This document shows, in pieces, positions 13,731-38,496 of a DNA stretch of 64,000 nucleotides (the first letter of the stretch is position 1; each line of letters opens with the position of its first letter). The translations under genes and the position numbers were made by a program. The notes under the pieces are model-generated. The model worked only from the letters and a program-made list of their open reading frames with translations, did not search any database and was not told where the DNA came from. The stretch spans positions 2,728,001 to 2,792,000 of the forward strand of contig NZ_CP107009.1 of assembly GCF_025725665.1 (NCBI RefSeq), in the 5' to 3' direction. The stretch comes from Halomonas sp. LR3S48. Its GTDB lineage: Bacteria > Pseudomonadota > Gammaproteobacteria > Pseudomonadales > Halomonadaceae.

Positions 13731-14150
13731 TCAGCCTTGTCCTCCTGTGCCGCCTATTTCTCGCCATGCCGAGGCAATGTCGTCCAGCAGTTTTTCGGCC
13801 TGGTCGAGGCTCTCCTGGTCACTGTGCAGGTTGGCAGCCAACAGCAGCCTTCCGATGTAGTCGTACAGCGAACCCAAGCGCTCGGCAATTTCGCCACCTT
13901 TCTCGATGTCCAATGCCGCCATGAGCCCATTGTTAACGATATCGAGCGCTTTGGTGATGGCCTTGCCCTTTTCCAGGGAATTGCCCGCCTGCATATGGAT
14001 GCGCGCCGCACGGATAGCGCTCTGGGCGCCATCGAACAGCATCACGATCAGTTGATGCGGGCTGGCCGACATCACGGCACTTTCGACACCGACCCGCGCA
14101 TAGGCTCCGGCACCACGGCCGTATGCAGCTGCTCCTCGCATGGTACTCAT
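13731..14150 (-). CDS. fliS: Flagellin export chaperone FliS
   Basis: FliS binds flagellin in the cytoplasm and delivers it to the export gate. The 139-residue helical protein shows the family pattern: repeated Tyr/Gly near the N-terminus (AAYGRGAGAYARV), SASPHQLIVMLFDGAQSAI, and the DIVNNGLMAALDIEKGGEIA segment. It leads a four-gene operon (fliS, fliT, FliK-like, FlhB-C) with 1-bp or overlapping junctions. A near-perfect FliA promoter lies 129 bp upstream, so it is expressed together with flagellin. Confidence 0.96.
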   Translation of the reverse strand: MSTMRGAAAYGRGAGAYARVGVESAVMSASPHQLIVMLFDGAQSAIRAARIHMQAGNSLEKGKAITKALDIVNNGLMAALDIEKGGEIAERLGSLYDYIGRLLLAANLHSDQESLDQAEKLLDDIASAWREIGGTGGQG

Positions 14151-14343: not shown

Positions 14344-16029
14344 TCATGTCGAGACGGGAACCTCCTCGACCATCTCGCCCAAGCGCGCCGTGACATCCCC
14401 ACGTAGCACCTCGCCCAACCCTTCGCCGGGAGGAGCGATCTCCTGGGTCAACTGCACCTGGAAGGGCTTACCCTGTTGATCGAGCCGTTGGATCCAGGCC
14501 AGCGCGCCACTGGAAAAGCGCACCAGCGACCCCACCGGGCGCAGCCCGAAACGCTCAAGGTAACGCTTCACCCAGCGCGGGTCGAATTGGTGGGGCGACT
14601 TGAGCAGATGCCGGTAAGCTGCATCGATGCGCCAGGCAGGACGATCAGGGCGATTGCGCCGCATGGCATCCACCGCGTCCACCACCGCACTCATGCGTGC
14701 CAGCTCGGTCAGGCCATCGCTCGTTGCCCCGGTCGGATAGCCGCTCCCATCGAGCCGCTCATTGATACCGGACACGACCGAATTCATGACCTCCACGGCC
14801 AGCCACTGGCAACTACCCAGGCGCTGCTGCAGCAATGCCACGTGCTCCCTGAGACGCTCGCGCCCCTCGGGACCCAGCGACTCTGTCGCCAGCAAGCCGG
14901 GAGGAAGGAGCCCCTTGCCAAGGTCATGCACCATGGCGCTGGCAGCCAATGCCTTGCGTACATCCCGCGGCACCGAACCGCTACCGGCCAGCGCCAGCAG
15001 GTGCACGGCGACGCCCAGCCCATGACGGACCAGCAGCGGCTCCTGCCCCAGGCAGCGAGTGGCGAAGAGCAACGCCTCAATGTCCTCCTCGGCCAGTTGG
15101 AGCAACATGTCGGCATGGCGTGACAGCTGAACGGAGTCGACCTCGTCGCCCTGCTGCAACTCGAGCAATTGAGCATCGAGGTAACCTGCCACCCGCGCCA
15201 GCCGGCGTGCCATCGGCGTGGGATAGGCCTGCAGGTTGCGCCGGCCGACTGGGGCAACAGCGCCAGCCGAGTGGCTCTGGAACAGCATCGACGGCAAGCG
15301 GCCGACATCGGCATCGTCGCCGTAGCGCGACGACTCACGCTCGATCTCGCGAACGAAGAACCACAGCTTGCGTTCCTGCTCGGCGGTACAGTTCTCGAAC
15401 TGAAACCCCACCTTCAGGGCCTGGCGATCGTTATCCGCCACCGTGTGACGTGCTACCGCTTGAACCGTGAAGCGCGTATCGTTGGGAAAGCAGAACTCGA
15501 CCTCGACCACGACGGCCTCGGCAAGCAGCGTGGCAGCGGAGGAAGGCAACTCCAATTGACAGCCCTGCTGGGACAGATCCTTGAGATCCCCCTGCACAGC
15601 AGTCTCGCCCTCGGTGCCGCGCACGATGGCACCCACCTCCATGCCCAGGCGCAAGCGGGCACGGAAGGCCTCGCGCCGCTGCAGCTCCTCGAGGTAATGC
15701 GGGTATTCGCACTGGCATTGAACCCTTCCGCCCGCCGTATCGACCTGCAGCGACTTCAGTACCGGTGTGCGAATCATCTTGCCTTGCACTTGGCCCAGCA
15801 GGCGAAATCCGATACCGCGCTTCAGCTCGCCGACGATCTCCCGCACGGCGGTGATGTCGAGCAGCAGCGACTGCGCCGGTGACTGCTCCATCATTACCAC
15901 CGGCATGGGTGTACTGCCGGGCCTATCTAGCATCAGCGAAGCTCCGCCCGGCTGAATCAACCGCTCCAGCAGCGCCTCGATCTCGCTCGGACTTCCCACT
16001 CGAAGAAACTCATCCTGAACCTGCGCCAT
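14344..16029 (-). CDS. YcgR/PilZ c-di-GMP effector fused to a degenerate HD-GYP domain
   Basis: Residues 1-110 resemble the YcgR N-domain of the flagellar brake. Residues 115-230 are a PilZ domain with the c-di-GMP motif RREAFR (118-123) and DLSQQG (151-156). About 300-510 is an HD-GYP-type domain: HD at 368-369, His396 and GSGYP at 428-432 are kept, but the usual HHE metal ligands before the GYP loop are replaced by Ile-Asn-Glu (422-424). The protein should bind c-di-GMP through PilZ and act on the motor; hydrolysis by the HD-GYP part looks impaired. YcgR is about 240 residues, so this 561-residue fusion is unusual. It follows the LOV GGDEF/EAL gene by 25 bp, suggesting co-transcription. Confidence 0.85.
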   Translation of the reverse strand: MAQVQDEFLRVGSPSEIEALLERLIQPGGASLMLDRPGSTPMPVVMMEQSPAQSLLLDITAVREIVGELKRGIGFRLLGQVQGKMIRTPVLKSLQVDTAGGRVQCQCEYPHYLEELQRREAFRARLRLGMEVGAIVRGTEGETAVQGDLKDLSQQGCQLELPSSAATLLAEAVVVEVEFCFPNDTRFTVQAVARHTVADNDRQALKVGFQFENCTAEQERKLWFFVREIERESSRYGDDADVGRLPSMLFQSHSAGAVAPVGRRNLQAYPTPMARRLARVAGYLDAQLLELQQGDEVDSVQLSRHADMLLQLAEEDIEALLFATRCLGQEPLLVRHGLGVAVHLLALAGSGSVPRDVRKALAASAMVHDLGKGLLPPGLLATESLGPEGRERLREHVALLQQRLGSCQWLAVEVMNSVVSGINERLDGSGYPTGATSDGLTELARMSAVVDAVDAMRRNRPDRPAWRIDAAYRHLLKSPHQFDPRWVKRYLERFGLRPVGSLVRFSSGALAWIQRLDQQGKPFQVQLTQEIAPPGEGLGEVLRGDVTARLGEMVEEVPVST

Positions 16030-16054: not shown

Positions 16055-19000
16055 TTATTTATGGTTATCGTCCGGTAACGACTGGGCGCCCGACATCAGC
16101 GCCTCGTTCTCGGCCTGCACAGTCATGTTGCCGTGCTGCCCGGCGACATCGGCCCGCTCCTTCAGATAGTCGCGCAATTTTCCGAGCGGCATGGGACGCG
16201 CAAAGAAGAAGCCCTGTAAGACGTCGCAACCATGAGCCGCCAGGAAGTCACGCTGCGGTGCTTCCTCGATACCCTCGGCCACCACTATCAACCCCAGGTG
16301 ATGCGCCATGGAGATAATGCCCTGGACGATGGCACTGTCATGGCGGTTGGTAGTGACATCGCGCACGAAACTACGGTCTATCTTGATCTTGCCGATCGGC
16401 AACTGCTTCAAATAGCTCAAGCTCGAGAATCCGGTACCGAAGTCGTCGATGGAAACCTCCACCCCCATGTCGCGCAAGCGATGCAGGGTCTCGATGGCCG
16501 CCGCGGTATCGGTCATCAGAATACCTTCGGTGAGTTCCAGCTCGAGATAATCCGCCGACAGGCCGGTTTCCCGTAGCGCCTGCTGCAAGTTGCACAGAAA
16601 GTTGGCGCGGCGGAACTGAAGCGGCGAGAGATTGACCGATACGCGATAGCGGCCGTATCCCTCCGCGGCCAGGCGGCACATGTCGCGGCACGCCTGTCGT
16701 AGCACCCACTCGCTGATCGGCGCGATCTGGCCTGTATCCTCGGCCAACGGAATGAAGAGCGCCGGGGAGAGATACCCTTTGACCGGATGCTTCCAGCGCA
16801 CCAGCGCCTCGAAGCCGACCACATTCCCGCTCCTGGCGCCTAGCAGGGGCTGGTAGTGCAACTCGAAGCTTTCTGCCTCGATCGCCTCCTGGAGGTCGTT
16901 GCGCAGCGCCATGCGCTCATTCACTTCGTCGTTGATGTCGCTGGTGAAGCACTCCCAGGCGTTGCGCCCCTTCTGCTTGGCACGGTACATCGCCATGTCG
17001 GCCTGCTGAATCAGTTCGACGGGGCTCTCCAGCGCCTCTCGCAGGAAGGCAATGCCCACGCTGGCGCCGATGTAGAGCTCGTGTTCGCCGACCCGATAAG
17101 GACGGCGAACGCAGACGAGCAGCCGCTCGACCAAGCGAATGGCCTCTTCCTCGCGTTCCAGTTCCGGCAGCAGAATGACGAATTCGTCGCTGCCGAAACG
17201 AGCCAGTGTATCGCCCGGATTCAGTTCCTCACCCAGGCGCTGGGCGGCCTGGATCAAGACCTGATCGCCCACTTCGTGCCCAAGGCTGTCGTTGATCGGC
17301 TTGAAGTCATCCAGGTCGAGGAACAGTACCGCCAGGTGGCAGCCGTGCCGCTGGGCGAGCAGCACATCGTGCACCAAGTGGTCCTCGAACAGCGAACGGT
17401 TGGCCAGGCCCGTCAGCGCATCGTGGCTGGCATGGTACGACAGCTTCGCCTCGTAGGACTTGCGTTCGGAAATGTCGTGCTGGATACCGATGAAATGGGT
17501 AGCGATGCCCTTGTCGTCCTTCACGGGTGCCAGGTAGAGATTGTTCCAGAACGGCGTGCCATCCTTGCGGTAGTTGCACAGGGTGACGTTGAGCTCTCGC
17601 TGCCCGGCAATCGCCTGCCTCAGCTGCGCCATGGCTTCCGCGTCGGTCTCACTGCCTTGCAGGAAACGACAGTTGTGCCCTAGCACCTCGTCACGTCCGT
17701 AGCCGGTAATGCGCTCAAAGGCCTCATTGACGTAGATGATGGGGTTATCGGGCTGCCGGGCATCGGTAATGACAATGCCGTTGATGCTGGCTTCTACGCT
17801 GCGTTGCAGTATGCGAAGCTCCGTCTCGCGTCGATGCCGCTCTGTCATGTCCTTGGCGATACCGTAGAAACCGATCACCCGGTCATTGACCACGATGGGC
17901 AGGTTGGTCACGTCGAGATAGACGCTGCGTTCCTCGCGGTGGCGGATGGTGGCCGTATAACGGAACGCCTCGCCCTTGTCGGCATTCAGATAGAGCGCCT
18001 CGATGCGCTCCCGATCGTTCGGCTGTAGCAGTTTCGAGAAATGCAAGCCGAGCAGTTGTTCGAGTGGATAGCCGGTTACGGTACTGCAGGCGGCGTTGGC
18101 CGTGGTGAAATTTCCCTCCAGATCGAGGGAGAAAACGGCATCGGGATGGTAAGTGAACATCGAGCGATAGCGCTGTTCGTTTTCCACCAACGCCTGGCGG
18201 TTGCGCTCCCGCTCCACCGCCAGCGATACCAGTTCGGCGGCCTCGATCACGCGCCGGCGATCGCTGCGCGTGGGCTCGCCCGGCTGGTGATAATAGATGG
18301 CAAAGGTACCCAGCACTCGAGCACTGCTGCTCGTCACCGGGTAGGACCAGCAAGCCTGGAGGCCATGGCTTGCCGCCAACTCGTGGTACCCATTCCAGCG
18401 CGGGTCGCGGGCGATGTCGGCGCATATGACGAAATCGCGAATATAGGCCGCGCGGCCGCAGGCACCGTTCTCGGGGCCTATTGCCACCCCCTCGATCGCA
18501 TCACCATAGGATTGCGGCAAGCTCACGCTGTAGAGACGTACCAGGTGCAAGCCGGATTCGTCGCAGAGCATGATGGAAGCGATTCCCCCCGGCACCTGGG
18601 CCTCGACGATCCGGCAGATCGCCTTGAGGGTATCCTCCAGGGGCTGGTCCCGCGCAATCAACGTCTGCACGCGCTGTTGCGCTCGCAAGTGACGCTGGGT
18701 GCGCGCCAAGGCCATCGAGCGGCGGCGGCTCAGGCCGGCCATCCCGAGGCTGAAGGCCAGCAGATAACTCATCACCAGCCCGCCCACGGCAACGCCCAGC
18801 GGCATCAGTCCAATCAGGCTGGCCATCAGCGGCCCAGCATCATGGATGCGCATCTCCATGGCAGCCCCACCGGGCAGCATCACCAGCCCCCGACGCAGCT
18901 CCACACCCTCTTCGGCATCGTTCAGGTGGTTGATCGCCAACAGGTTCACATCACGCTGCAAGGAGAGACGCAGCGGCGTGACCAAGGCATTCACCTCTTC

Positions 19001-20092
19001 GCGAAACAGACGCGTGAGGTCGAGCACGGCAATCAACTTGCCATGCGCAGGCAGCGACAATGGCACGGACACCAGGGCGAGCTCCGGGCGCTGCTCGTCC
19101 GGCAGTACCCAGCGTGGGTATGGGCCGCCTACTGCCAGCCAATCCAGCAGCCAGTCATATTTCTCCACCCAACCCGATAGAAGGAAATCGTCCCTCTCCT
19201 GCCCCCAGCGAAACTGTTCATCCAGCCCAGACTGCCAATGAAGCGCAACCAGGCTCGGCATGTCACGGAAGAAGCCCTCGACTTCCACCTCCCGATAACG
19301 TTGCGGCGGCAAACCGCCAAATTCCACCCAGCGCTCCGCCATGCGCTGGATCTCGCGCTGCTTGTCGTCCACCACCCGCTCGGCGCTTATCTTGAACGTG
19401 AAGAACAGCTCCGTGGCATGCCGCTGCCGGGCGTCATACTGTTGCCAGGTCAGCGCATACCAGGCAATGCCGCTGGCAAACACGCCACCAATCAACGCCA
19501 GGATCATCGCGCGATTCAGCGCGGGGGCTACGGTCGGATGGCGCGCCATCAGCATCATGGCGGTGCCGCACAGTAGCGCCGGCAAGGCCGTGAAGGGCGT
19601 GGCGAAGGCGGTACCCCATGGGGTAGTGACAACCAGATCAGGTCGCAGCCCCGCCGCAACGCTCACTCCCCCAACCAGGAAGAGCGCGACACCGCCCAGC
19701 CACCAGAACAGGCGAGCACGTACAGAGCGGTTGCTTGCCATCAGGCAGGCCGCGGCGATCAGCACCGCGATGCTGGTAGCCGGGGTAAGCGGTTCCTGCC
19801 CAAACGGAAAGATCTCAGCCACCTCAGAGGGTAGCCATGCCACCAGCGGTGCGTACAGACCGATCGGCAACAGCAGCGCCCCACAGAGCTGCGCCATTGG
19901 CACCCGGCCCAGAAGCGTTGCCAACAGCCCGCCGCCAACCAGCATCATGATGGGCAGGCTGATTCCTGGCGGCTGCCATTCGACTGGCAGTCGCCAGGTG
20001 GCAAGACCGTTGACGATACCCATGACCAGCAGCAATACCGGCACCAGCACCAGCCAGGTATGGAGCGCCACTTGCTGTGAATTGTTGGGCAT
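16055..20092 (-). CDS. Membrane CHASE-like, GAF, PAS, LOV, GGDEF, EAL protein
   Basis: This 1345-residue protein starts with several membrane helices (about 10-215) and a periplasmic CHASE-like segment, then another helix near 430-455. GAF (about 480-630), PAS (about 640-765), LOV (about 775-885), GGDEF (895-1060) and EAL (1070-1325) follow. The LOV part has the flavin-adduct motif GHNCRFLQ with Cys808, plus NYRKDG, FWNN and GIQHD, all diagnostic of blue-light sensors. The GGDEF signature is GSDEF (Ser968), so cyclase activity is doubtful. The EAL part is intact (EAL at 1095, DDFGTG, KIDRSF, QGFFF). The likely net activity is c-di-GMP hydrolysis. The start at 20090-20092 is preferred over one 26 codons upstream, which lacks a ribosome site. 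Confidence 0.88.
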   Translation of the reverse strand: MPNNSQQVALHTWLVLVPVLLLVMGIVNGLATWRLPVEWQPPGISLPIMMLVGGGLLATLLGRVPMAQLCGALLLPIGLYAPLVAWLPSEVAEIFPFGQEPLTPATSIAVLIAAACLMASNRSVRARLFWWLGGVALFLVGGVSVAAGLRPDLVVTTPWGTAFATPFTALPALLCGTAMMLMARHPTVAPALNRAMILALIGGVFASGIAWYALTWQQYDARQRHATELFFTFKISAERVVDDKQREIQRMAERWVEFGGLPPQRYREVEVEGFFRDMPSLVALHWQSGLDEQFRWGQERDDFLLSGWVEKYDWLLDWLAVGGPYPRWVLPDEQRPELALVSVPLSLPAHGKLIAVLDLTRLFREEVNALVTPLRLSLQRDVNLLAINHLNDAEEGVELRRGLVMLPGGAAMEMRIHDAGPLMASLIGLMPLGVAVGGLVMSYLLAFSLGMAGLSRRRSMALARTQRHLRAQQRVQTLIARDQPLEDTLKAICRIVEAQVPGGIASIMLCDESGLHLVRLYSVSLPQSYGDAIEGVAIGPENGACGRAAYIRDFVICADIARDPRWNGYHELAASHGLQACWSYPVTSSSARVLGTFAIYYHQPGEPTRSDRRRVIEAAELVSLAVERERNRQALVENEQRYRSMFTYHPDAVFSLDLEGNFTTANAACSTVTGYPLEQLLGLHFSKLLQPNDRERIEALYLNADKGEAFRYTATIRHREERSVYLDVTNLPIVVNDRVIGFYGIAKDMTERHRRETELRILQRSVEASINGIVITDARQPDNPIIYVNEAFERITGYGRDEVLGHNCRFLQGSETDAEAMAQLRQAIAGQRELNVTLCNYRKDGTPFWNNLYLAPVKDDKGIATHFIGIQHDISERKSYEAKLSYHASHDALTGLANRSLFEDHLVHDVLLAQRHGCHLAVLFLDLDDFKPINDSLGHEVGDQVLIQAAQRLGEELNPGDTLARFGSDEFVILLPELEREEEAIRLVERLLVCVRRPYRVGEHELYIGASVGIAFLREALESPVELIQQADMAMYRAKQKGRNAWECFTSDINDEVNERMALRNDLQEAIEAESFELHYQPLLGARSGNVVGFEALVRWKHPVKGYLSPALFIPLAEDTGQIAPISEWVLRQACRDMCRLAAEGYGRYRVSVNLSPLQFRRANFLCNLQQALRETGLSADYLELELTEGILMTDTAAAIETLHRLRDMGVEVSIDDFGTGFSSLSYLKQLPIGKIKIDRSFVRDVTTNRHDSAIVQGIISMAHHLGLIVVAEGIEEAPQRDFLAAHGCDVLQGFFFARPMPLGKLRDYLKERADVAGQHGNMTVQAENEALMSGAQSLPDDNHK

Positions 20093-20234
20093 GCAATCCC
20101 CGCTCGCTAATTCTTCTGAGTTTCTTATCGGCAGCGAGCCGCAGGACTTGAGGAACTCGGCAGGGAACATGTGGCTCGAAGCGCCGCAGAGATCGGCTGC
20201 CTCGAAGGAGTCTTATGGGGATGCAGGCGATTCG

Positions 20235-21476
20235 CTATTGGGGGGTTCGTGCGTCTTCGGGCGCCGTCGGGGCCAGGGCCGCCACCACCTGGTTGCGCCC
20301 CTCGCGCTTGGCCCGATAGAGCGCTTCGTCGGCACGCTTGAGCGCTTCCTGTGCCGGCTCGTCCTGTTCCAGCCGGGTCACGCCGATGCTGGTCGTGACC
20401 GGAATGGGCTCGTCAGCATGGCCGCTGAATTCGGTCTTCTCCACGGCATACCGAATGCGTTCGGCGACTTCCAGCGCCCTGGCCTGGCCGCTGCCGACCA
20501 GAATGATGACGAACTCCTCTCCGCCATAACGCGCGACACAATCATGCCGACGCGTCTGACTCACCAGCAGCTCGGCAAACTGGCACAACACGCTATCGCC
20601 GACCGAGTGGCCGTAGCTGTCGTTGATACGCTTGAAGTGGTCGAGATCGATCATCAGCAACGAACAGGGCACGCTGCCAAGGCTGTCCTGACCTTCGGTG
20701 TCGCGCTGCCAGGCCTGGACTTTCTCCAGATGCACCTCCAGCGCGCCGCGGTTGAAGAGCCCCGTCAGGGGGTCATGCGTGGCCTGGCGATAGAGCCGTA
20801 GCAGCAGGCTGAGCTGAAAATGGTTGGCCGCCAGGGAAACGACCAGCAGACTGGAGAGCAGCCAGACGCTTTCCAGGCCGCGACCGGTCAGCCAGCTGCC
20901 ATCGATCACCTGCGAGTACGCCAGCAGCCCAAGCATGGCAAGACCGGCCGCGATCGATTCCAACAAGGTGAAGGGAAAGACGCTCAATGCCGCCACCAGC
21001 AGGAAGGGAATGAAACCATATCCCACCAGGTGGCGTACCTGCTCCACTGGCAACATGACCAAAACGAAGAGATAGAACCCTGCCGGCAACGCAAGCAGCA
21101 TACCGGCGCTGAAGCGGATACGACGTATCCGCTCATGGCTGAAGTACGCCAGCGCCAGCACACCCACCAGCCCCAGCAATAGCCCCACCCTTCCCGCCAG
21201 GGTGTAGCGCAGGAGCTCGCTCGGCAGCACCAGGGAGTCCACCACGATCCACAGCGGTGAAAGCAGCGCGAAGATCAGCCCAAGGGCCAGTACACGGCTG
21301 CGCAGATAGCGCGCATGAGCGAACGCGAAGTCGCGCGAATGATGTCGGCTGCTCAGGGTATCGCGCAGGGCGCTCAAGCCGACGAACAGTTCATGCCCCA
21401 CCTCGGGTGGCTCGGCCAGCGCATCCAGGCGGCGATTCTGGTAATCGGTGGGTTCATTCGACTTGCTGAAGAGCAT
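20235..21476 (-). CDS. Membrane-bound diguanylate cyclase
   Basis: This 413-residue protein makes c-di-GMP from two GTP. Six or so hydrophobic helices fill residues 60-230, followed by a GGDEF domain (about 240-400) with an active GGEEF signature at 318-322. An inhibitory I-site RRHD at 309-312 is exactly five residues before it, so product feedback is expected. HDPLTGLFNR marks the domain start. It lies 143 bp upstream of the LOV GGDEF/EAL gene, pairing a synthase with a probable hydrolase. No known ligand domain can be assigned to the membrane part. Confidence 0.92.
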   Translation of the reverse strand: MLFSKSNEPTDYQNRRLDALAEPPEVGHELFVGLSALRDTLSSRHHSRDFAFAHARYLRSRVLALGLIFALLSPLWIVVDSLVLPSELLRYTLAGRVGLLLGLVGVLALAYFSHERIRRIRFSAGMLLALPAGFYLFVLVMLPVEQVRHLVGYGFIPFLLVAALSVFPFTLLESIAAGLAMLGLLAYSQVIDGSWLTGRGLESVWLLSSLLVVSLAANHFQLSLLLRLYRQATHDPLTGLFNRGALEVHLEKVQAWQRDTEGQDSLGSVPCSLLMIDLDHFKRINDSYGHSVGDSVLCQFAELLVSQTRRHDCVARYGGEEFVIILVGSGQARALEVAERIRYAVEKTEFSGHADEPIPVTTSIGVTRLEQDEPAQEALKRADEALYRAKREGRNQVVAALAPTAPEDARTPQ

Positions 21477-24775: not shown

Positions 24776-27700
24776 CTATTGCGGCTGCTTTGCGTACTGC
24801 TCCCACATAGCGGCCACGCTCTCTTGTCGCACCCCACTCTTTACTCTGAAGAGGCCGGCCGACTCGGCTTTCTCTTCAACCTCCAAGAACTCAAGCACTA
24901 CGTGGTAGTTGGGACGATTCCAGAAATCATGAATGAAGATTCGCGCCCCTTGCGGATCCTCGGAGTTCGCTAGAATATGCTGGATGGCTGCCATCGTACA
25001 GGCAACGCGGAAACGCCCATCCACCAGGATAAGGTCAAAAGACTGTTCTTGAAGATGAATTGCTTGACTATAGGCCGGGAATTTTTCTGAGCTCTCCATT
25101 GTCACCGGAAAGCCCCATTCCTTGGTCGGACCAATGTCGACGGCCTCGACTTGACACATCTCCCCAAGCTTCCGTTTTAGCGCGCCCACCCACTTTGCAT
25201 CGCTTTCAACACCATGAACAGTCAAGCCCTCCTGAACTGCCCACACACTAGATCCACCTGAGCCGAATTCAAAATAACGGCTGGATTGGCGAAGCGCCTT
25301 CTTGAACAGGTCGCGCTCCGGCTCCGACATAAACGGCGCCTCGGGTACGGAAAATCCACCATCCGCGGGAGCCTCTTCCTTCTGTTCGTCAACTTCTGAA
25401 GGTGAAGCTGAGGCTCTATCTGCCAACAAATATGCTTCAGCCTTCTTTACATCCACATCGGACAGCAGCGAATACGCCATATCTTTTACGTTGTATAAAG
25501 CGTGCAACAGGAACGCCAGTTTCACACGTTGCGCTTCCGGCATTTCTTTCAAACGCTCGCCGCTCGGCAGGAATAGCGCATCGGCGCTTGACAACTCAGT
25601 CGCCTGCCACTCGTCCACCGGCATACTATCCGGCAAGCGGCTACGGTGATCCATGTTATTGAAGCGATAGAATCTGAAACCATACTGATTTGCCCATTCA
25701 GCGATCGTGCCAAACTCAGACTTCCCGGAAGGGGCTGGATTGAATATGACACGCACTTCGAGCAACAAAGTGTTTTTCAGGTTATCGCTGCCGTGCTGCA
25801 GGATCGTAAGGTTATCGTGGCTGTCACTCAGACAAAGTAGATCGATATTTGGCAGACCCTCGATAGCATTAAGGGCCACACTGGGAATCTGCTCAGTACC
25901 TGCATTCACCACTGGCTGGCCATTACCAAGGCTGGTGCCGGGAAAGTGTTGAATCTCTCCGTATTGGGCCAAATGTTCCGCGTTTTGCAATCTACTATCA
26001 GGATCAAAGCTCAGCATAGCGATACGTCCACTTCCGAGCAGCTCCCTTGCATCTGGACGTGAGGCGAGAACGGCGCCATTATCCACGGCGAGAACCGGGC
26101 TCTCCAATTGCCAATCGAAGCCATCCTCAGGCTGAGCCAGAACCAGTTTGGCTGGCTCATCTTCGCCAACGAATTGGGCCACACCGCTCTTGCTGAACGT
26201 CAGCGCCTCCGGCGCTTTACCTTCGCAATGACGCTGCCAGATGGCACGTAATGCGGCAGTCAGGTGGTTGGCGAAGCGAGGGCCATCACAAATGGGGGAA
26301 TCCGTGAGAATGGTACGCAGGGCGGCGCGAATGACGGCAAGATTGGGCAAGTCAGAGGCCAGTTCCTTGGCACGCTGACGGAAATCATCCCAGTTCTCGG
26401 TAACCAGCTCCGGGAGCCCAGCATTGACCAAGTGACTAGCACTATGCCGCCCAGCAAAGGTGGGGCCGACATGGGTAACCACCGGCACTCCCATCATCAG
26501 GGCCTCGCAGGTAGTCAGGCCGCCGGAATACGGCCAAGTGTCTAGTGCGATATCGATACGCTGATAAGTGGCCATGAACTCCTGGTGCTGTGCCGGCCCC
26601 TCCAGCAAGAGGCGGTCCGCAGCCACACCGTGCTCTACAAAAATACTGATTATCTTTTCACAATAGCGTGCGCTTTCGAACTGAATGCCGCGGAGCAACA
26701 GCTTGCCATCAGGGATTTCCTTCAGCAGCTTAGCCCACTCGGCCAACATGGGGGGCGACAGCTTGGCGGGATTATTCAGGCAGCCGAAGGTAATATAACC
26801 ATTGCTAAGCGCAGGGAGCGCATTGCATGAAGGAGCATGCTCAGGAATATGGTAGCAGATATAATCATCGGGAAGACGAATCAGCTTCTCCACATAGAGT
26901 TCATCGACTCCCTCGGGTGTCTCGATGCTATCGCTCAGCAGGTAATCGAAACAACTTAGCCCCGTAGTACTGATCAGGCTTCCCACCCACTTGACGATCA
27001 GCGGCGCTGGCTCGCGGGTCAGGGTATCATAGCGGGTCCCCTCCCCTGCACCATTCATGTCGATCAGGATGTCGATATTGTCATCGCGGATTTTTTGGTC
27101 CAGTTGCCCAGCGCCTAAACCCTCGACCACGTCCCAATGGTGCACAACACCTAGGATCTGCTGAGTCAGTTTATCCACGATCTGGCTAGTACTGTAGGCA
27201 AATAATTCGAACTGCTGGCGAGACAAATGCTGCAATGCTGGCAAAATCATCTGACCCACCGGGTGTACCCTTAAGCCACCGGATAGCAGACCAATACGCA
27301 ACCTTTTCTTGACGTCCCTCTGGGTAGCAGCCCGCCCCAAAGAGGAGCGCCGAGAAAAGCGCCGATCCCACTCAATAGCCTTGAGAAAAATCTCTTCGGC
27401 ACTATAAACAGGATTATAATGCGCGGCAACCAAGAGATTGGAGTACACCTTACCGTTCTCCGGAGTCAGCTCCAACTCCTTGGCATACAGCGCTTCCGCT
27501 TTGTGGTAATCCCCCTCTTTTACAAATAGAGTCGCCATATGGTTGTTCAAGCCAATGCGCTTTGGATTGACCTTCAGCAGAGTTTCCAAAGTTCGCATGC
27601 AGTCATCATGAAGCTTGAGTTGGTCAAGTATACGTGACCGCCATAGCAACGCTTCTTCATGATATGAGTCCAACAACATGGCTCTATCATTTATTTCAAG

Positions 27701-28132
27701 TGCTTTGCCATTATCACCCAGTTGATGGTAGGCACGACTCAACCAAGCCAGCGCCATAATATGGTCAGGCTGTTTTTTGAGAACCTCATCCAGATTTTTC
27801 AATGCATCCTTCGCCCTACCCGCCAATACTTGATACTGCGCTAGCTTGAGATACTGACTTGTATCGGGTGCTGATGCCAACTCAACAACTTTTCCCATAG
27901 CATCACAGGCTTCATCCAGCCGTTCCAACCGTCCCAAGGCGTTGGTTTTGAGCTCCCAGGCCTGCAAATGATGCGGATGCCGCTCAAGCATGGCTTCGGC
28001 CAACCGCAGGGCTTTGCTGTAGTCGCCAGCGTAAAACGCCGTCTCGAATGCAGTCACCTGAGCCACTGGTAGCGGAGAAATCGCTTGGGAAGTGCGAGGT
28101 GCTGAACCTCGGCGAGCTTGTTTGTTGGACAT
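24776..28132 (-). CDS. TPR / O-GlcNAc-transferase-like / FkbM-like / methyltransferase fusion
   Basis: This 1118-residue cytoplasmic protein lies between two flagellin genes. Residues 30-235 are TPR repeats. Residues 277-636 match bacterial OGT-type (GT41) enzymes: LRIGLLSGGLRVHPVG with His290, DILIDMNGAGEGTR, ITFGCLNNPAKLSP and DTWPYSGGLTTCEALMMGVP. About 640-880 looks like a reduced FkbM-type domain. From 935 to the end is a class I methyltransferase-like domain (YFEFGSGGSS, FDLILVDGRFRVA). It probably glycosylates, and perhaps methylates, flagellin Ser/Thr before export. The start at 28130-28132 has AAGGTG upstream; 24 further in-frame codons look like leader. By eye it is more AT-rich than its neighbours, suggesting transfer. 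Confidence 0.82.
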   Translation of the reverse strand: MSNKQARRGSAPRTSQAISPLPVAQVTAFETAFYAGDYSKALRLAEAMLERHPHHLQAWELKTNALGRLERLDEACDAMGKVVELASAPDTSQYLKLAQYQVLAGRAKDALKNLDEVLKKQPDHIMALAWLSRAYHQLGDNGKALEINDRAMLLDSYHEEALLWRSRILDQLKLHDDCMRTLETLLKVNPKRIGLNNHMATLFVKEGDYHKAEALYAKELELTPENGKVYSNLLVAAHYNPVYSAEEIFLKAIEWDRRFSRRSSLGRAATQRDVKKRLRIGLLSGGLRVHPVGQMILPALQHLSRQQFELFAYSTSQIVDKLTQQILGVVHHWDVVEGLGAGQLDQKIRDDNIDILIDMNGAGEGTRYDTLTREPAPLIVKWVGSLISTTGLSCFDYLLSDSIETPEGVDELYVEKLIRLPDDYICYHIPEHAPSCNALPALSNGYITFGCLNNPAKLSPPMLAEWAKLLKEIPDGKLLLRGIQFESARYCEKIISIFVEHGVAADRLLLEGPAQHQEFMATYQRIDIALDTWPYSGGLTTCEALMMGVPVVTHVGPTFAGRHSASHLVNAGLPELVTENWDDFRQRAKELASDLPNLAVIRAALRTILTDSPICDGPRFANHLTAALRAIWQRHCEGKAPEALTFSKSGVAQFVGEDEPAKLVLAQPEDGFDWQLESPVLAVDNGAVLASRPDARELLGSGRIAMLSFDPDSRLQNAEHLAQYGEIQHFPGTSLGNGQPVVNAGTEQIPSVALNAIEGLPNIDLLCLSDSHDNLTILQHGSDNLKNTLLLEVRVIFNPAPSGKSEFGTIAEWANQYGFRFYRFNNMDHRSRLPDSMPVDEWQATELSSADALFLPSGERLKEMPEAQRVKLAFLLHALYNVKDMAYSLLSDVDVKKAEAYLLADRASASPSEVDEQKEEAPADGGFSVPEAPFMSEPERDLFKKALRQSSRYFEFGSGGSSVWAVQEGLTVHGVESDAKWVGALKRKLGEMCQVEAVDIGPTKEWGFPVTMESSEKFPAYSQAIHLQEQSFDLILVDGRFRVACTMAAIQHILANSEDPQGARIFIHDFWNRPNYHVVLEFLEVEEKAESAGLFRVKSGVRQESVAAMWEQYAKQPQ

Positions 28133-28278
28133 GGTCAGGACACCTTGGCAGTTGAAGCGATGGTTGGTGATAGGGTAGCTCTCCGGGCACGACGGGATAT
28201 GCACGATAAAAGCACGCCCCTATGCCCTTTTTTCCCCTTAAACAGCTCCGCTCTTGATCAATGGCGCTCGAAACGAAG

Positions 28279-29275: not shown

Positions 29276-29302
29276 TTAACGGCTCCGGGAGAAAAACCTT
29301 TA
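29276..29302 (-). promoter_or_regulatory. FliA (sigma-28) promoter for fliC
   Basis: TAAAGGTT, 11 bases, then GCCGTTAA on the minus strand, located 111 bp before the fliC ATG. Confidence 0.85.
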
Positions 29303-29471: not shown

Positions 29472-30833
29472 TTATTTCTTGCTCGGACTCATCTGCCTGT
29501 TCAACATATCGAGCTGTTGCATCAAGTAGGAGCCGGTGGAGTTCATCCGAGCGAGCATGACGTCGAGTTGACCGAACTGCTTGCGGTAACGCTCGATGGT
29601 CCGCTCGATGCTGGTCTCCATGCGCTCATAGCGATCGTTCAGGCTATCTACCTTCGTTTCGGAACTCTTGATCGAGCTCTTCACCAAGCCATCATCGCCG
29701 AGCACCTGTTTCAGAGTACCGCTGAGCCGACCCGCCATACCGGCTTCTTTACTGTCGCCTGCGAAGAAGTCCGACACGGCCTGGGGATTGTTGGCGATGG
29801 CGTCATCGAGCTTGGCCCCGTCCAGCTCCAGCCGGCCGTTGGGTTTCAGGGAGATACCGAGCTGGGACATCATCTGAAACTCGCCGCCGGTGACGAGATC
29901 GCCCAGGTTACGGCTCAGCCGCGTCTCGATGGTGCGCACGGCACGGTCCCCCACCAGGTCGCCCGCCTTGTCGCCCTCGCCGGTCACCTGTGTCATGCGA
30001 CCGATGGTCGACTTCATCTCGTTGTAGGCAGTAACGAAGCCGGTCACGGCTTCCTTGAGGGCCTCGGTGTCACGCTCCACCACGATGGTCGATGTCTTGC
30101 CCGCCGCTGCGGCGTCCAGTTCGAGCGTCACACCCTGGATCGCCCCTTCCACCCGGTTGGAGCTGCTGGTGATGGTGATGTTGTTGACCAGGAGCTCGGC
30201 ATCTCTCCCTGCCACCTTGACCGCCGTATCTTCGGTCAGTGCTGTATTGGCGAAGGACATGCCCGTCACACTTTCCGCGAGCCCTGTCTCCTTGGAGTTC
30301 ACGACCAGGCGATAACCATTGCCATCGTTGATGATAGAGGCCGAGACACCGGCATCGGCATCCGCATTGATGGCATCGCGGACATCCTGGAGGGTTCCTC
30401 CCTCGGCGAGATCGACCGTGACGTCTGCCTTGCCCTGAAAACTGAGTGTAAGCGTATCGCCACCGGCCCCCACCAGCGCATCGGTCGCGCTTGCGACACC
30501 CTGGCTGGCGATACTGCCCGCCTTGGCAATTTGGTTCACGGTGACTTCATAACGCCCCGGGCTCGCTTCCGCTCCAGCCGTCGCGGAGACGCCCTCGCCC
30601 AGTGTCTTTGTCGTCAGGCTCTGGTAGAGCTTGGCGTCATTGAGCTTGGCCACGGCGTCCTGAAACTTGGTCAAGCCAGACTGAAGCCGGCCGTACGCGG
30701 AGATCTTGGCCTGCTCCTGCGTCCGCTGAGCCGTGATCGGCTGGAGCTTCTGCCGTTCGGCCGCATTCAGTTGATTCAGCAGGCCGGTGAGATCGAGGCC
30801 GGAGCCAACGCCAAGTGAGGAGATCGATGCCAT
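29472..30833 (-). CDS. fliD: Flagellar filament cap protein FliD, copy 1
   Basis: FliD forms the cap at the filament tip where flagellin folds. From the ATG at 30831-30833 it has 453 residues and begins MASISSLGVGSGLDLTGLL, the FliD_N signature. FliD_C and a C-terminal coiled coil ending in a Met-rich helix (LDVMLARMNSTGSYLMQQ) are present. An ATG five codons upstream (30848) lacks a ribosome site, and the paralogue next door begins at the equivalent of the chosen Met. It has its own FliA promoter and terminator. A second fliD lies 115 bp upstream with roughly half its residues identical in the N-terminal part. Confidence 0.95.
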   Translation of the reverse strand: MASISSLGVGSGLDLTGLLNQLNAAERQKLQPITAQRTQEQAKISAYGRLQSGLTKFQDAVAKLNDAKLYQSLTTKTLGEGVSATAGAEASPGRYEVTVNQIAKAGSIASQGVASATDALVGAGGDTLTLSFQGKADVTVDLAEGGTLQDVRDAINADADAGVSASIINDGNGYRLVVNSKETGLAESVTGMSFANTALTEDTAVKVAGRDAELLVNNITITSSSNRVEGAIQGVTLELDAAAAGKTSTIVVERDTEALKEAVTGFVTAYNEMKSTIGRMTQVTGEGDKAGDLVGDRAVRTIETRLSRNLGDLVTGGEFQMMSQLGISLKPNGRLELDGAKLDDAIANNPQAVSDFFAGDSKEAGMAGRLSGTLKQVLGDDGLVKSSIKSSETKVDSLNDRYERMETSIERTIERYRKQFGQLDVMLARMNSTGSYLMQQLDMLNRQMSPSKK

Positions 30834-30875
30834 GTTGTTCGCTTCCATGGTGGCAGAGATATGAAGTTAGTACCG

Positions 30876-30947: not shown

Positions 30948-32306
30948 CTATTCGCCACCCATCTGCGCATCGAGCATGCCGAGCTGCTGCGTCAGGTAGG
31001 CACTTGTCTGGTTCATCTGGGCCAGCAGGCCGTCGAGTTGACCGAACTGCGTCTGATAGCGCGCAATGGTGGTATCGATACTCTGCTCGGTACGGATATA
31101 GCGATCTTGCAAGCTATCGATACGGTTCTCCGCCCCACCGATAGCCCCCTCCAGCGCACCGTTGGTATCCAGCAGTTGCTCGAGAGTAGTGTCGAGCCGC
31201 CCCGCCATGCCATCCTCTGCGGCCTCCCCGGCGAAAAAGGTGCCGACCTCACCCAGATCTTCCGCGAGAGCCGTCTCCAGCGTCGCTTCATCGAGCTCTA
31301 GCGTACCATCGACACGGAGCGTAATGCCCAGGTCGGCAAGCATCGCGTACTCGTCGCCTTCGGCAACCCCACTCGCCAGGTCGCTACGCAAGCGGGACTC
31401 GATGCCACGCACGGCGCTATCCCCGATCAGTTCGCCGGCCTGCCCGTCTTCGCCATTGTAGGCAGTCAGCTTGCCGGCCGTTCCCTTGAGTTCATTGTAG
31501 GTTTCGACGAAATCGACGACGGCCTGTTGAACGGCTTCGTTATCCTGTTCCACCGTCAAGGTGGTGCTGCCCGTCCCCTGCAGGTTGAGTGCGACCCCCT
31601 CGATGGCATCGTCCACCTGATTGTCGGCACTCGATATGGCGATGCCGTTCACTTCGAACCTGGCATCCTGGCCTTCCTGCAGCACCGCTTCGTCCGCCAG
31701 CGTTGCTTGTGTTGCCAGTGCCGCAAAGTTGGCACCGACGATGGCTGCCTGCTCTCCGGTCTCCTGCGACATCACGGCCAACCGATAGCCCTCACCATCG
31801 TTCACGATCGAGGCCGTGACAGCCGCATCGGGATCGGTATTGATGGCGTCGCGCACGTCCTCGAGGGTGCTGTCGGCGGCGATGGCCACGCCGTGGTCGA
31901 GGCTGTCATCCACGAAGGTGAGATCGAGCGAGGCGTCGGCATCGTTGAGCACGGTGTCGAGGCTGTCCACCCGCTGTGTGGCGAGGCTGCCGGCGGTGGC
32001 CAATTGCTCTACATCAATAGCATATTGTCCCGGGGAAGCCTCCGGCCCCGCGGCAGCCTGCACGGCATTACCGCTGACAGAAGTGGAAAGACTCTGGTAG
32101 AGCGAGGCATCGTTGAGCGTATCGGTGGCGGTCTGGAAACTGGAGAGCGCGCCCTTCAGTTCGCCGTAGGCGGAGATCTTGACTTGCTGGGTCTCGATCT
32201 GTTGCTTGATGGGCTCGAGCTTGCTGCGCTCGGCTTCGTTGAGTTGATTAAGCAATCCGTTGAGGTCAAGCCCCGAGCCGATGCCAAGGGAAGAAATGCT
32301 GGCCAT
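30948..32306 (-). CDS. fliD: Flagellar filament cap protein FliD, copy 2
   Basis: This is a 452-residue paralogue of the downstream cap protein. It has the same frame: MASISSLGIGSGLDLNGLL at the start, ASPGQYAIDVEQLA near 100 and a C-terminal LDGLLAQMNQTSAYLTQQLG. The middle is more acidic (VDSLDTVLNDADASLDLTF) than in copy 1. Having two caps alongside two flagellins suggests cap-flagellin pairing or alternative filaments, which is inference. It has a separate FliA promoter at 32381-32407. No clear terminator separates it from the promoter of copy 1. Confidence 0.94.
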   Translation of the reverse strand: MASISSLGIGSGLDLNGLLNQLNEAERSKLEPIKQQIETQQVKISAYGELKGALSSFQTATDTLNDASLYQSLSTSVSGNAVQAAAGPEASPGQYAIDVEQLATAGSLATQRVDSLDTVLNDADASLDLTFVDDSLDHGVAIAADSTLEDVRDAINTDPDAAVTASIVNDGEGYRLAVMSQETGEQAAIVGANFAALATQATLADEAVLQEGQDARFEVNGIAISSADNQVDDAIEGVALNLQGTGSTTLTVEQDNEAVQQAVVDFVETYNELKGTAGKLTAYNGEDGQAGELIGDSAVRGIESRLRSDLASGVAEGDEYAMLADLGITLRVDGTLELDEATLETALAEDLGEVGTFFAGEAAEDGMAGRLDTTLEQLLDTNGALEGAIGGAENRIDSLQDRYIRTEQSIDTTIARYQTQFGQLDGLLAQMNQTSAYLTQQLGMLDAQMGGE

Positions 32307-35619: not shown

Positions 35620-38142
35620 TCAGGCGTCCTGTGGTGTCACCCCACTTTGGGAGACCAGATAGCGCTTGGCGAAGAGGTCGGCCGGTACCGGCTGACCGGT
35701 GAGATAACCCTGGATCAGTTCGACGCCATGCCGTGCCAGGGCTTCGCGCTGGCTGTCGGTCTCGACTCCGACGGCGGCGAGGCACAGCTCCATCTCGCGG
35801 GCCAGCCCGGCCACTGCGGCCACGATCGCCGCACTGCCTCGCTGCCCGCTGTCCAGGCGCTGCACGAAACGACGGTCGATCTTGAGCATGCTGATCGGCA
35901 GCTCCTGGAGATAACCGAACGAGGCATAGCCAGTACCGAAATCGTTGATGGCGACCTCTCCACCAAGCCGCCGCAGTCGCTTGAGCACAATGGCCGCCTG
36001 GTGGGGCTTTTCCAGTAGGGTACGCTCGGCGATCTCGAAGCCCACCAAGCCCGGTTGCAGCTTGTGCTCGTTGAGCTTGGTGGCCACCCGCACGGGCAGG
36101 TCATGCTGCCAGAACTGGCGTGCTGACAGATTGATGCTGACGGGAACCGGCCTGGCCCCCAGGGCACTCCAGGCAGCCAGTTGCGTGCAGATCTGCTCGA
36201 GAATGTACTCTTCCAACTGCGGCAGCAGCGCTGCCCGCTCGGCCAAGGTGACGACGCTGGTCGGCGGCACGGTGCCGAGCAGGGGGTGATGCCAGCGCAA
36301 GAGTGCCTCGGCGCTATGCAGATTACCACTTACCCGCTCGAAAATGGGTTGGTAGTGCAGTTGCAGGCCTTCCCCCGACACGAACGCCTCACGCAGGGCG
36401 GATTCCAGCGCACGCTGGCGGTCATCCTGCAGGTTCATCTCGTTGCGGTAGAGGCGGTAGCCGTTGCGCCCTTCCTGCTTGGCACGATACATCGCGGCAT
36501 CGGCACTGTGCACCAGCGACTCCGCCGTCGAAGCATCGTCGGGGTAGAGGCTGATGCCCAGGCTGCAGCCGACGCGAAACTCCTGTCCCTCGATCACGCA
36601 GGGCTCTCGCACGGCTTCCACCAGGCGCTGGGCCACCCGGGCCACTTCGTCCACCTCTTCCAGATCGGGAAGCAGCACGAGGAATTCATCCCCCCCGAGC
36701 CTGGCTAGCGTATCGTCCTCACGCAGGCGCAGCTGCAGCCTCTCGGCCATCATCACCAGCAGTTCATCACCGAAAGCATGGCCCAGCGCATCGTTGACCT
36801 CCTTGAAGTGGTCCAGGTCGACGAAGATCACCGCCAGCCGGCTCTGGTTGCGATGGGCATGCCGTATTGCCAGCTCCAGCCGGTCTTCCAGCAGGCGGCG
36901 ATTGGGCAGCCCGGTGAGGGCGTCGTAGTAGGCCAGCTTGCGAATACGCTCTTCATTGTCGCGCAAGTGGGTGATGTCGCTGAACAGCGCAGCGTAATGG
37001 GTAGCGGCACCGCTGTCGTCGGTGATTGCCGTGATCGTCAGAAGCTCGAGGTAGAGTTCGCCGTTCTTGCGGCGGTTCCAGATCTCGCCACGCCAGTAGC
37101 CGCTGCGCTGAAGGGCATCCCACATCTGGCGATAGAAAGCGGCATCATGACGCCCAGAAGCCAGGAATGCCGGGGTCTTGCCGATCACCTCTTCGGAGGT
37201 GTAGCCGGTCATGTGGGTAAAGGCGCGATTGACGAATTCGATACGGTTGCTGGCATCGGTGATGATTATGCCTTCCAGGGAGGAATCGATTACCCGCTCG
37301 GCCAGCTGTAGATTCTCCCGCGATTGAGCGAGGGCACGATCGCGCTGTTCCAGCGCATTGCGCAGATCCTGCATGTAGAGGTGTTCGGCGCCGGCCAGCA
37401 AATCGCGAAACCCCAGCAGCCCCACCACCTCCTCGGCCTCGTCCAGCACTGCCAGGTGGCGCACGCGATGGTTCATCAGCAGGTCCCGCGCGGCAATCAG
37501 GGTATCGTTCTGGTGCACCGTGAGCAGAGGGCGACTGGCCAGGGAATCGATTGGCGTGTTCCCCGGGTGGCGCGCCACGAACCGAACCAGGTCACGCTCG
37601 GTGAGAATGCCCAGCTCACCGTCCGCGCACTTGACCACCACTGCATCGCACTCGGAGAGCCGCATCGAGCGTGCCGCCTGGGCCAGACGCTGCCCCCCTT
37701 CCAGCACCAGCGCTCGCTGGCGCATGGCCGCCTGGACTTCGCGCAACCGCAGGTAGGGCTCGAGCCCCTGGTTCAGGGCAACGTCTGTCTGCGACAGAAT
37801 GCCCACCGGAGCTCCACCGTCATCCACCACGAGGAAATGACGACGCCGCTCGGCATTGAAGCGCAACGCGGCTTCGCTGATCGGGGTCGAACGATTCAGG
37901 CTCGCGACCGGCTGGTTCATGACTTGGGAAATCGGCAGGCGAACGGCATCGGGGTCGGCGAAATTGACCGCAAGTGCATCGCGTTCCGTCCAGATGCCCA
38001 GGGGTTGCCCCGCCTTGACCACGATGATCGAGCTGCACTGGCGTGCCGCCATGCGCTCGGCGGCCATCCACAGCGGCGTCTCGGGTTCGCAGGTCAGAAG
38101 CCCGGACTGCATGATGCGTTCGATAGGTAACTCTTGGCTCAT
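35620..38142 (-). CDS. Four-CBS, PAS, GGDEF, EAL c-di-GMP protein
   Basis: This soluble protein has 840 residues from the ATG at 38140-38142 (MSQELPIERIMQSG), which has GAGG five bases upstream; 50 further in-frame codons upstream lack support. Two pairs of CBS motifs fill about 8-255 and usually bind adenine nucleotides. PAS (about 275-395), GGDEF (400-560) and EAL (575-830) follow. The GGDEF is intact (GGDEF 483-487) with an I-site RxxD five residues before it. The EAL domain keeps EAL but has Asn733 in place of the first metal-binding Asp of DDFGTG, so it is probably a weak phosphodiesterase or a c-di-GMP sensor. Net cyclase activity tuned by adenylate charge is inferred. Confidence 0.88.
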   Translation of the reverse strand: MSQELPIERIMQSGLLTCEPETPLWMAAERMAARQCSSIIVVKAGQPLGIWTERDALAVNFADPDAVRLPISQVMNQPVASLNRSTPISEAALRFNAERRRHFLVVDDGGAPVGILSQTDVALNQGLEPYLRLREVQAAMRQRALVLEGGQRLAQAARSMRLSECDAVVVKCADGELGILTERDLVRFVARHPGNTPIDSLASRPLLTVHQNDTLIAARDLLMNHRVRHLAVLDEAEEVVGLLGFRDLLAGAEHLYMQDLRNALEQRDRALAQSRENLQLAERVIDSSLEGIIITDASNRIEFVNRAFTHMTGYTSEEVIGKTPAFLASGRHDAAFYRQMWDALQRSGYWRGEIWNRRKNGELYLELLTITAITDDSGAATHYAALFSDITHLRDNEERIRKLAYYDALTGLPNRRLLEDRLELAIRHAHRNQSRLAVIFVDLDHFKEVNDALGHAFGDELLVMMAERLQLRLREDDTLARLGGDEFLVLLPDLEEVDEVARVAQRLVEAVREPCVIEGQEFRVGCSLGISLYPDDASTAESLVHSADAAMYRAKQEGRNGYRLYRNEMNLQDDRQRALESALREAFVSGEGLQLHYQPIFERVSGNLHSAEALLRWHHPLLGTVPPTSVVTLAERAALLPQLEEYILEQICTQLAAWSALGARPVPVSINLSARQFWQHDLPVRVATKLNEHKLQPGLVGFEIAERTLLEKPHQAAIVLKRLRRLGGEVAINDFGTGYASFGYLQELPISMLKIDRRFVQRLDSGQRGSAAIVAAVAGLAREMELCLAAVGVETDSQREALARHGVELIQGYLTGQPVPADLFAKRYLVSQSGVTPQDA

Positions 38143-38496
38143 GGCGCCTCGCTGGCTGGATATTGCCGCTTGAGTCTTCGTCAATCTCGTACCCAAGAGC
38201 AACCTGCACGCTTCCCTGACCTGTTCGCGATCCCTGCCTATTGGAACTGAAATACTCGGAATGTAGCCAATCCGTAACTGCATTTTATCCACTTGGCCCC
38301 ACTTTGCATCAACGAAGGCAAAAAAAGACCAACGCTCCGCAATATAAACGTAAAAAAATGCACCAAGATCTAAAGTTGTCGTCGGAACGGCCGATAGTGC
38401 TTATGGGAGAGGCTGTCTGTCAGGCGGCCTTGGGGAGGATGCTGAAAGAAGGCTTGAAGAAAGCTTCAGCAAGGGCATACATAAGGAAAACACGAC
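38143..38496. other. Intergenic region before flaG
   Basis: These 354 bp hold the divergent starts of the CBS-GGDEF-EAL gene and flaG, including the flaG FliA promoter at 38371-38397 and a leader of about 90 nt. No further gene is convincing. Confidence 0.7.
38371..38397 (+). promoter_or_regulatory. FliA (sigma-28) promoter for flaG
   Basis: TAAAGTTG, 11 bases, then GCCGATAG on the plus strand, near consensus. Confidence 0.87.

Follow-up and report, generated by a model that had tools for sequence, protein, structure and literature searches.

Does a LOV domain in a c-di-GMP phosphodiesterase encoded among flagellar genes place swimming under the influence of blue light? The question is raised by a gene at positions 16055-20092 of a 64,000-nucleotide stretch of Halomonas DNA (hereafter the window). 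The host genome is a single contig of 4.69 Mb whose closest named relatives are Billgrantia species of the Halomonadaceae. An original prediction that left the strand unnamed assigned a LOV domain and a role as a c-di-GMP protein to this gene; the sequence features behind it are borne out, and the gene lies on the minus strand. The product has GAF, two PAS, GGDEF, and EAL domains according to Pfam, and the second PAS is the LOV domain. The features needed to follow the argument are these:

13731..14150, minus strand: FliS, the first flagellar gene downstream
14344..16029, minus strand: PilZ protein, P. putida PP4397-like (FlgZ/YcgR type), with an HD-GYP-like domain
16055..20092, minus strand: LOV phosphodiesterase gene (TM/extracytoplasmic region-GAF-PAS-LOV-GGDEF-EAL)
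16193..16903, minus strand: EAL domain, carrying all eight catalytic/metal residues that were checked
16961..17431, minus strand: GGDEF domain, with the motif GSDEF and with NPGD where the RxxD inhibitory site is usual
17435..17821, minus strand: LOV domain plus its N- and C-terminal helices, spanning residues 784-912 in the 1371-aa reading
17669..17671, minus strand: TGT codon of the putative adduct-forming cysteine, read from 17671 to 17669
20125..20151, minus strand: sigma-28 (FliA)-type promoter TCAAGTCC-N11-GCCGATAA, 32 nt upstream of the ATG at 20092
20235..21476, minus strand: membrane diguanylate cyclase directly upstream, with GGEEF and an RxxD site

The LOV phosphodiesterase and its functional sites

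Two ATG codons are candidates for the start of the gene, one at 20092 and one upstream at 20170, the latter giving the 1371-aa reading. The start at 20092 fits better, and that at 20170 is judged less likely, because invariant columns begin at Met27 in an alignment of 16 orthologs and because the conserved promoter sits between the two codons. The adduct cysteine is C808 when counted from 20092 and C834 when counted from 20170.

The four motifs named in the original prediction (GHNCRFLQ, NYRKDG, FWNN, and GIQHD) are all present in the translation, and the cysteine that it singled out, Cys808, is encoded by the TGT codon listed above and aligns with the adduct cysteine of solved LOV domains. 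In profile and sequence searches the second PAS domain matches LOV families and LOV structures. With residues 780-912 as query and a limit of E<=1e-6, phmmer matches 150 distinct PDB sequences, and the best among the matches listed is the Meiothermus LOV structure 9vf7 (3.6e-39). The cysteine motif is aligned free of gaps in the five phmmer alignments inspected, four of which have the cysteine, while the other has the engineered-type Cys-less sequence NARFLQ. Two NCBIfam families, YtvA_fam (residues 788-913) and a LOV histidine-kinase family (residues 791-907), also match, each below its whole-protein cut-off and with a different architecture.

The structural check called for by the original prediction gives a LOV fold as well. 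An AlphaFold model of the domain, built with 50 orthologs, has a mean pLDDT of 89.7, and its helices and strands follow one another as in LOV domains, with the cysteine opening a short helix; alignment was used to judge where this residue lies with respect to FMN. The best 50 PDB structure matches of the model are all LOV or LOV-derived, with an rmsd of 0.6-1.5 A in 36 of them. The ten canonical LOV residues, the set used in the accessible text of Yee 2015 (PMC4682037), are complete: C834 together with G831, N833, R835, F836, L837, Q838, N866, N876, and Q897. By its sequence and predicted fold, the second PAS of the flagellar phosphodiesterase is a canonical LOV domain with a complete photosite.

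Among the 8 PAS domains read of the 11 in the genome, the LOV signature occurs only in this domain and in a 144-aa short LOV protein, and a search of the genome for BLUF domains found none. A CBS-PAS-GGDEF-EAL protein at 35620-38292 of the window has a PAS domain that lacks the LOV cysteine motif.

The EAL domain is intact, as had been claimed, and carries E1121, N1180, E1215, D1242, D1243, K1263, E1299, and Q1319, which we take to be its catalytic and metal-binding residues. None of the eight varies in any of three clades, which comprise 23, 17, and 21 rows. The GSDEF noted in the original prediction is also present and departs from the GG(D/E)EF active-site motif of cyclases, although this domain might retain some diguanylate cyclase activity. 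GSDEF is no fixed trait of the clade, because the variable residue is Ser in 16 and Gly in 7 of its 23 orthologs. A link between an intact LOV domain and GSDEF was considered and is unsupported, since the raw association (9/9 versus 7/14, p 0.019) shrinks to p 0.5 when independent pairs are compared, about 2 of 5 of which differ.

The flagellar locus and its FliA-type promoter

The cyclase, the LOV phosphodiesterase, and the PilZ gene adjoin one another, so that a writer, an eraser, and a reader of c-di-GMP lie in one row. The PilZ gene begins 25 nt downstream of the phosphodiesterase gene, and its predicted identity holds up: residues 35-239 match the PP4397 structures 2gjg and 3kyf, and the protein has the YcgR-type N-domain and PilZ domain of the YcgR/FlgZ group with both PilZ motifs intact (REAFR for RxxxR and DLSQQG for DxSxxG). 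Residues 312-491 match an HD-GYP enzyme. The usual HD-GYP motif is HHExxDGxGYP, and this part of the protein reads INERLDGSGYP, without the HH pair. The fusion is possibly a motor effector with a dead phosphodiesterase domain. Fusions of this type are found in 51 of 90 genus genomes and 188 of 250 family-sample genomes (E<=1e-40), counts that may include paralogs.

The flagellar surroundings reported earlier are likewise confirmed, with FliT, FliK, FlhD, FlhC, and MotA downstream and flagellin upstream. Among 60 loci examined, the order cyclase-LOV phosphodiesterase-PilZ-FliS is kept in all 23 retrieved loci of the Billgrantia clade (L039-L061), and a PilZ gene is nearby in 7 of the 37 beyond it. 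When 77 named loci are considered, all four genes occur in 19 and all but the cyclase in 3 more. One genome has a PilZ gene of 72% identity (G060:C13:35942-37618) and a best phosphodiesterase match of only 4.9e-120, and the phosphodiesterase partner may be missing there. Elsewhere in the window, two adjacent fliD-type genes (29472-30848 and 30948-32306) each have a sigma-28-like site, and a 1142-aa TPR protein with an O-GlcNAc-transferase-like (GT41) domain (24776-28204) adjoins flagellin and is perhaps a flagellin glycosyltransferase.

The sigma-28 consensus is TAAAGTTT-N11-GCCGATAA, and a scan with this pattern reveals ten minus-strand sites scoring >=15 within the window. Leaving aside the site of the phosphodiesterase, eight of the other nine precede genes for FliS, FliD (two), FlgK, MotA, flagellin, and MCPs (two); the ninth, a strong sigma-28-like site at 29276-29302, was not assigned to a gene. 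The phosphodiesterase promoter scores 15.6, a value reached by 19 of 2000 random 173-nt pieces of the window. A sequence of the form T(C/A)AAG...-N11-G(C/A)CGATA is located 30-45 nt before the conserved Met in 23 of 23 clade orthologs, and the DNA around these sites is otherwise hardly alignable. Some of the clade promoters score 13.4-15.4, which falls under the 15.6 behind the 19/2000 null, and a cruder anchor than the conserved Met places 22 of 23 rows above 13.4. Outside the clade, a score of 15.4 is reached in 6 of 61 rows, against 17 of 1000 null pieces, each 330 nt long. The genome also has a FliA gene that matches above the family cut-off. Judged by its sequence, the LOV phosphodiesterase gene carries the sigma-28 promoter of a FliA-dependent (class III) flagellar gene.

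Photosite changes among orthologs

The complete set of ten LOV residues is kept in 9 of the 23 Billgrantia-clade orthologs, the adduct Cys is replaced by Gly in three, and the LOV domain is missing in one. This last case is B. endophytica (L057/L159), where a GGDEF-EAL protein occupies the same place and the parts flanking the domain are kept. On a maximum-likelihood tree of 84 orthologs, from which the LOV columns were excluded and rows L058, L154, and L160 left out, the presence or absence of the Cys switches at least four times. Gly replaces it in B. zhangzhouensis, in B. antri together with genome G083, and in Onishia, and Ala or Pro does so in four Halomonas rows. The motif reads GRF in B. 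zhangzhouensis and GNF in B. antri, and it is intact in B. bachuensis. Parsimony alone cannot decide the direction of change, and loss is likelier than gain because the outgroups and early branches have the Cys.

The Billgrantia clade (23 rows, tree length 3.80) has 18 changes at the ten residues, compared with 4 for a Halomonas clade (17 rows, 3.58) and 3 for a clade containing Vreelandella (21 rows, 4.84); the latter two have complete sets in 12 of 17 and 19 of 21 rows. The Billgrantia excess gives binomial p values of 1.0e-4 and 0.0033 against equal rates. Within this clade, N833-F836 take 15 of the 18 changes, and G831, L837, Q838, and N876 are invariant. The ten columns also change more than 49 equally conserved LOV columns (mean 1.8 versus 0.80, one-sided p 0.036, or 0.050 with a stricter choice of columns), and it should be kept in mind that the erosion tests were picked after the pattern was seen.

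The eroded domains fall into two classes. In the first, only the Cys is gone, and both Arg and the Asn/Asn/Gln set are kept (L039, L100, L118, L149, and L076); by analogy, these orthologs could bind flavin without forming an adduct. In the second, phosphate-binding Arg is lost (L099, L101, L102, and L104), and L111 and L117 lose one. A Gln to Leu change is present in L103, L104, and L119.

Several other relatives depart from the typical protein. Two near relatives without the LOV domain (L062 and L063) keep the flanking parts and lie outside the flagellar locus. The orthologs L059 and L061, like L148 and L170, are about 120-150 residues shorter (1207-1224 aa) and keep the LOV domain; their matches leave out window residues 663-783, which would fit an absent or diverged first PAS. 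L060 (1348 aa) has the same gap in its match and yet is not shorter. In L058 (G084), whose LOV Cys is Gly, the phosphodiesterase and PilZ frames are both broken, possibly through sequencing errors.

In the lineage of the window, the LOV core (residues 784-847) is identical at 64 of 64 positions in the window protein, L110, and L042. Pairwise dS among these three closely related sequences, from which the conservation of this lineage is drawn, is 0.64, 0.59, and 0.30. Since identity is complete despite a dS of about 0.6, strong purifying selection appears to act here on the full photosite, which looks functional. Restoration of the photosite by recombination was rejected: between the window and L110, segment 816-847 has 100% protein identity, and only 55% of its synonymous codons agree, which argues for selection rather than a recent copy. 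Another intact pair, L109-L112, has a core dN of 0.076. For seven pairs in which both members are eroded, core dN/dS is 0.13-0.22; dS is saturated in several of all the pairs compared. Such values suggest that the eroded domains are still constrained and not dead.

The short LOV protein serves as a control. This protein (L095:9814-10248; 144 aa, with DCRFLQ) is highly conserved in the clade and is present in 71 of 90 genus genomes. Eight residues shared with the flagellar LOV domain are all kept in the short protein in 20 of 20 clade genomes and in the flagellar domain in 9 of the same 20 (Fisher 1.5e-4, a test that treats genomes as independent, which they are not; 20 of the 21 matching clade genomes were read). 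The ten-residue count for the flagellar domain is 8 of 20, two of the ten residues being absent from the short family. The short LOV protein resembles PpSB1-LOV and PpSB2-LOV in type and shares the LOV fold and the genomes of the flagellar LOV domain, but differs in that it has no effector domain and keeps its photosite in all sequences read.

Two causes of the erosion were considered and set aside. A general loss of light sensing is opposed by the short LOV photosite kept in 20 of 20 genomes. A trigger role for the FliA promoter is unsupported, as the Cys-less Halomonas rows L118, L149, L117, and L076 have no such site. No short LOV match was found at E<=1e-50 in 3 of 24 clade genomes (G024, G052, and G089). 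Because the LOV-deleted lineage and one Cys-less lineage are both among these three, general light sensing may be gone in those two.

Candidate functions of the LOV domain

With moderate confidence, we propose that the gene encodes a FliA-dependent flagellar phosphodiesterase gated by a photoactive LOV domain. The domain would bind FMN, and blue light would form a Cys834-C4a adduct. The resulting change would travel along a helix to the GGDEF-EAL part and alter c-di-GMP hydrolysis. Blue light most likely raises hydrolysis, as in the SL2 protein described below, although this direction is a guess. The PilZ protein would then free the motor, as in a YhjH-YcgR-like set with a light input added. 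The protein has further sensory inputs in its GAF, PAS, and extracytoplasmic regions. The photo-input would be an optional layer, with sister species having dropped it several times while retaining the enzyme, and light cannot be essential to the operon, because the full LOV set is found in only 9 of 23 orthologs. Of the original prediction, the canonical LOV domain, the intact EAL site with its degenerate GGDEF, and the link to the flagellar regulon are supported, the last more firmly than before through the promoter and the conserved gene order; light control of hydrolysis and of swimming stays putative. Light control as the main job of the gene is disfavored, since the enzyme site is kept where LOV sets are incomplete, where Gly replaces Cys, and where the domain is absent.

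Other readings of the same data deserve consideration. The LOV domain might be mainly a sensor of flavin redox state (or oxygen), a role proposed for RmcA, with the Cys and adduct dispensable, which would explain why relatives lose the Cys and keep the pocket. Five rows (L039, L100, and the Halomonas rows L118, L149, and L076) lack only the Cys and keep their flavin contacts, and the seven eroded pairs still evolve under purifying selection. According to accessible parts of the literature, Cys-less LOV proteins can signal through flavin photoreduction (PMC4682037), and the Cys-less LOV-like PAS of RmcA responds to phenazines and light (PMC8846402). However, neither the Cys nor any other core residue differs among the window, L110, and L042, and the loss of one or both phosphate-binding Arg in L099, L101, L102, and L104 ill suits a kept flavin, so we consider this reading rather unlikely. 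We find it slightly less likely still that the LOV domain acts as a structural PAS relay in which the cofactor has lost its importance, with other inputs driving the enzyme and the window residues simply not yet lost. The excess of changes at the ten residues over the comparison clades and the LOV-less GGDEF-EAL protein of B. endophytica favor such a relay, but zero amino-acid changes in 64 core codons of three species at dS values up to 0.64 are unlike idling, and N876, L837, Q838, and G831 are unchanged across the clade.

It seems highly improbable that the protein is a light-controlled cyclase or a bifunctional enzyme instead of a phosphodiesterase. LOV-activated cyclases do exist (8c05), a LOV-GGDEF-EAL protein of Mesorhizobium yielded a LOV-GGDEF fragment with light-repressed cyclase activity according to the available portion of one report (PMC9098866), and the GGDEF motif is canonical in 7 of the 23 orthologs of the clade. 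Against this, the window protein has GSDEF and lacks the RxxD site, and the eight EAL residues are invariant in three clades.

The preferred reading, a light-gated flagellar phosphodiesterase, has precedents in its parts. As described in the accessible text of two papers (PMC8846402, PMC5812497), the LOV-GGDEF-EAL protein SL2 of Synechococcus elongatus has phosphodiesterase activity induced by blue light. Both proteins have a LOV domain fused to GGDEF-EAL with an intact EAL, whereas the window protein adds a membrane/extracytoplasmic part, a GAF domain, and a second PAS, and its gene lies in a flagellar operon with a FliA-type promoter and has a photosite that is eroding among orthologs (SL2 is compared by description only). 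In E. coli, YhjH (PdeH) is FliA-dependent and relieves YcgR, as stated in the available text of PMC3634460 and PMC4866697. By analogy, the cyclase/LOV phosphodiesterase/PilZ set resembles a light-gated YhjH-YcgR pair, with a FliA-type phosphodiesterase, a PilZ protein at the motor, and the same writer/eraser/reader logic. It differs in that eraser and reader adjoin, the eraser has LOV/GAF/PAS inputs, and the reader has an HD-GYP-like domain.

Precedents for the eroded orthologs exist as well. RmcA of P. aeruginosa, in the part of PMC8846402 available to us, is a multi-PAS GGDEF-EAL phosphodiesterase whose LOV-like PAS lacks the Cys, as do the Cys-less orthologs of the window gene, whereas the window protein retains it. 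About 70 natural Cys-less LOV proteins have been catalogued (PMC4682037), and Gln to Leu need not abolish LOV signalling (PMC9098866), again as given in accessible sections. The residues whose natural absence is the subject of Yee 2015 and of the 2022 Gln study are also lost in single orthologs here (Cys to Gly/Ala/Pro, Gln to Leu); those studies drew on database-wide sets, whereas here the losses recur in one syntenic ortholog group with intact sisters.

LOV proteins with GGDEF or GGDEF+EAL account for about 18% of the bacterial LOV proteins, according to the available text of one survey (PMC4844311), and a LOV-GGDEF-EAL phosphodiesterase is an already known enzyme type. Neither its FliA-promoter setting nor a photosite lost repeatedly within a single syntenic gene was found described in a search that left most subscription journals outside. 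By title and abstract, the papers found on Halomonas with LOV domains and blue light, and on Billgrantia and light, do not treat a flagellar LOV phosphodiesterase, and what was found on loss of the photoactive cysteine among LOV homologs concerns another protein.

A further and more tentative possibility, which we regard as doubtful, is that after joining the FliA regulon beside its PilZ reader the photoreceptor has been turning, lineage by lineage, into redox-gated or constitutive motor control. If true, a single syntenic enzyme would have switched its sensory modality repeatedly and at dated points, by way of Cys to Gly changes and the loss of phosphate-binding Arg, of Gln, or of the whole domain, while the unrelated short LOV protein of the same cells is untouched. 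If the window protein is photoactive, the locus would link blue light to the flagellar motor compactly, through a cyclase, a light-gated phosphodiesterase, and an adjoining PilZ reader under flagellar control, in an organism for which phototaxis is not known. The orthologs of this one syntenic gene, ranging from intact through Cys to Gly, Arg lost, and Gln lost to domain absent, would provide a natural test of the role of the Cys in vivo and of the route from photoreceptor to dark or redox sensor, a question already raised for Cys-less LOV proteins and RmcA.
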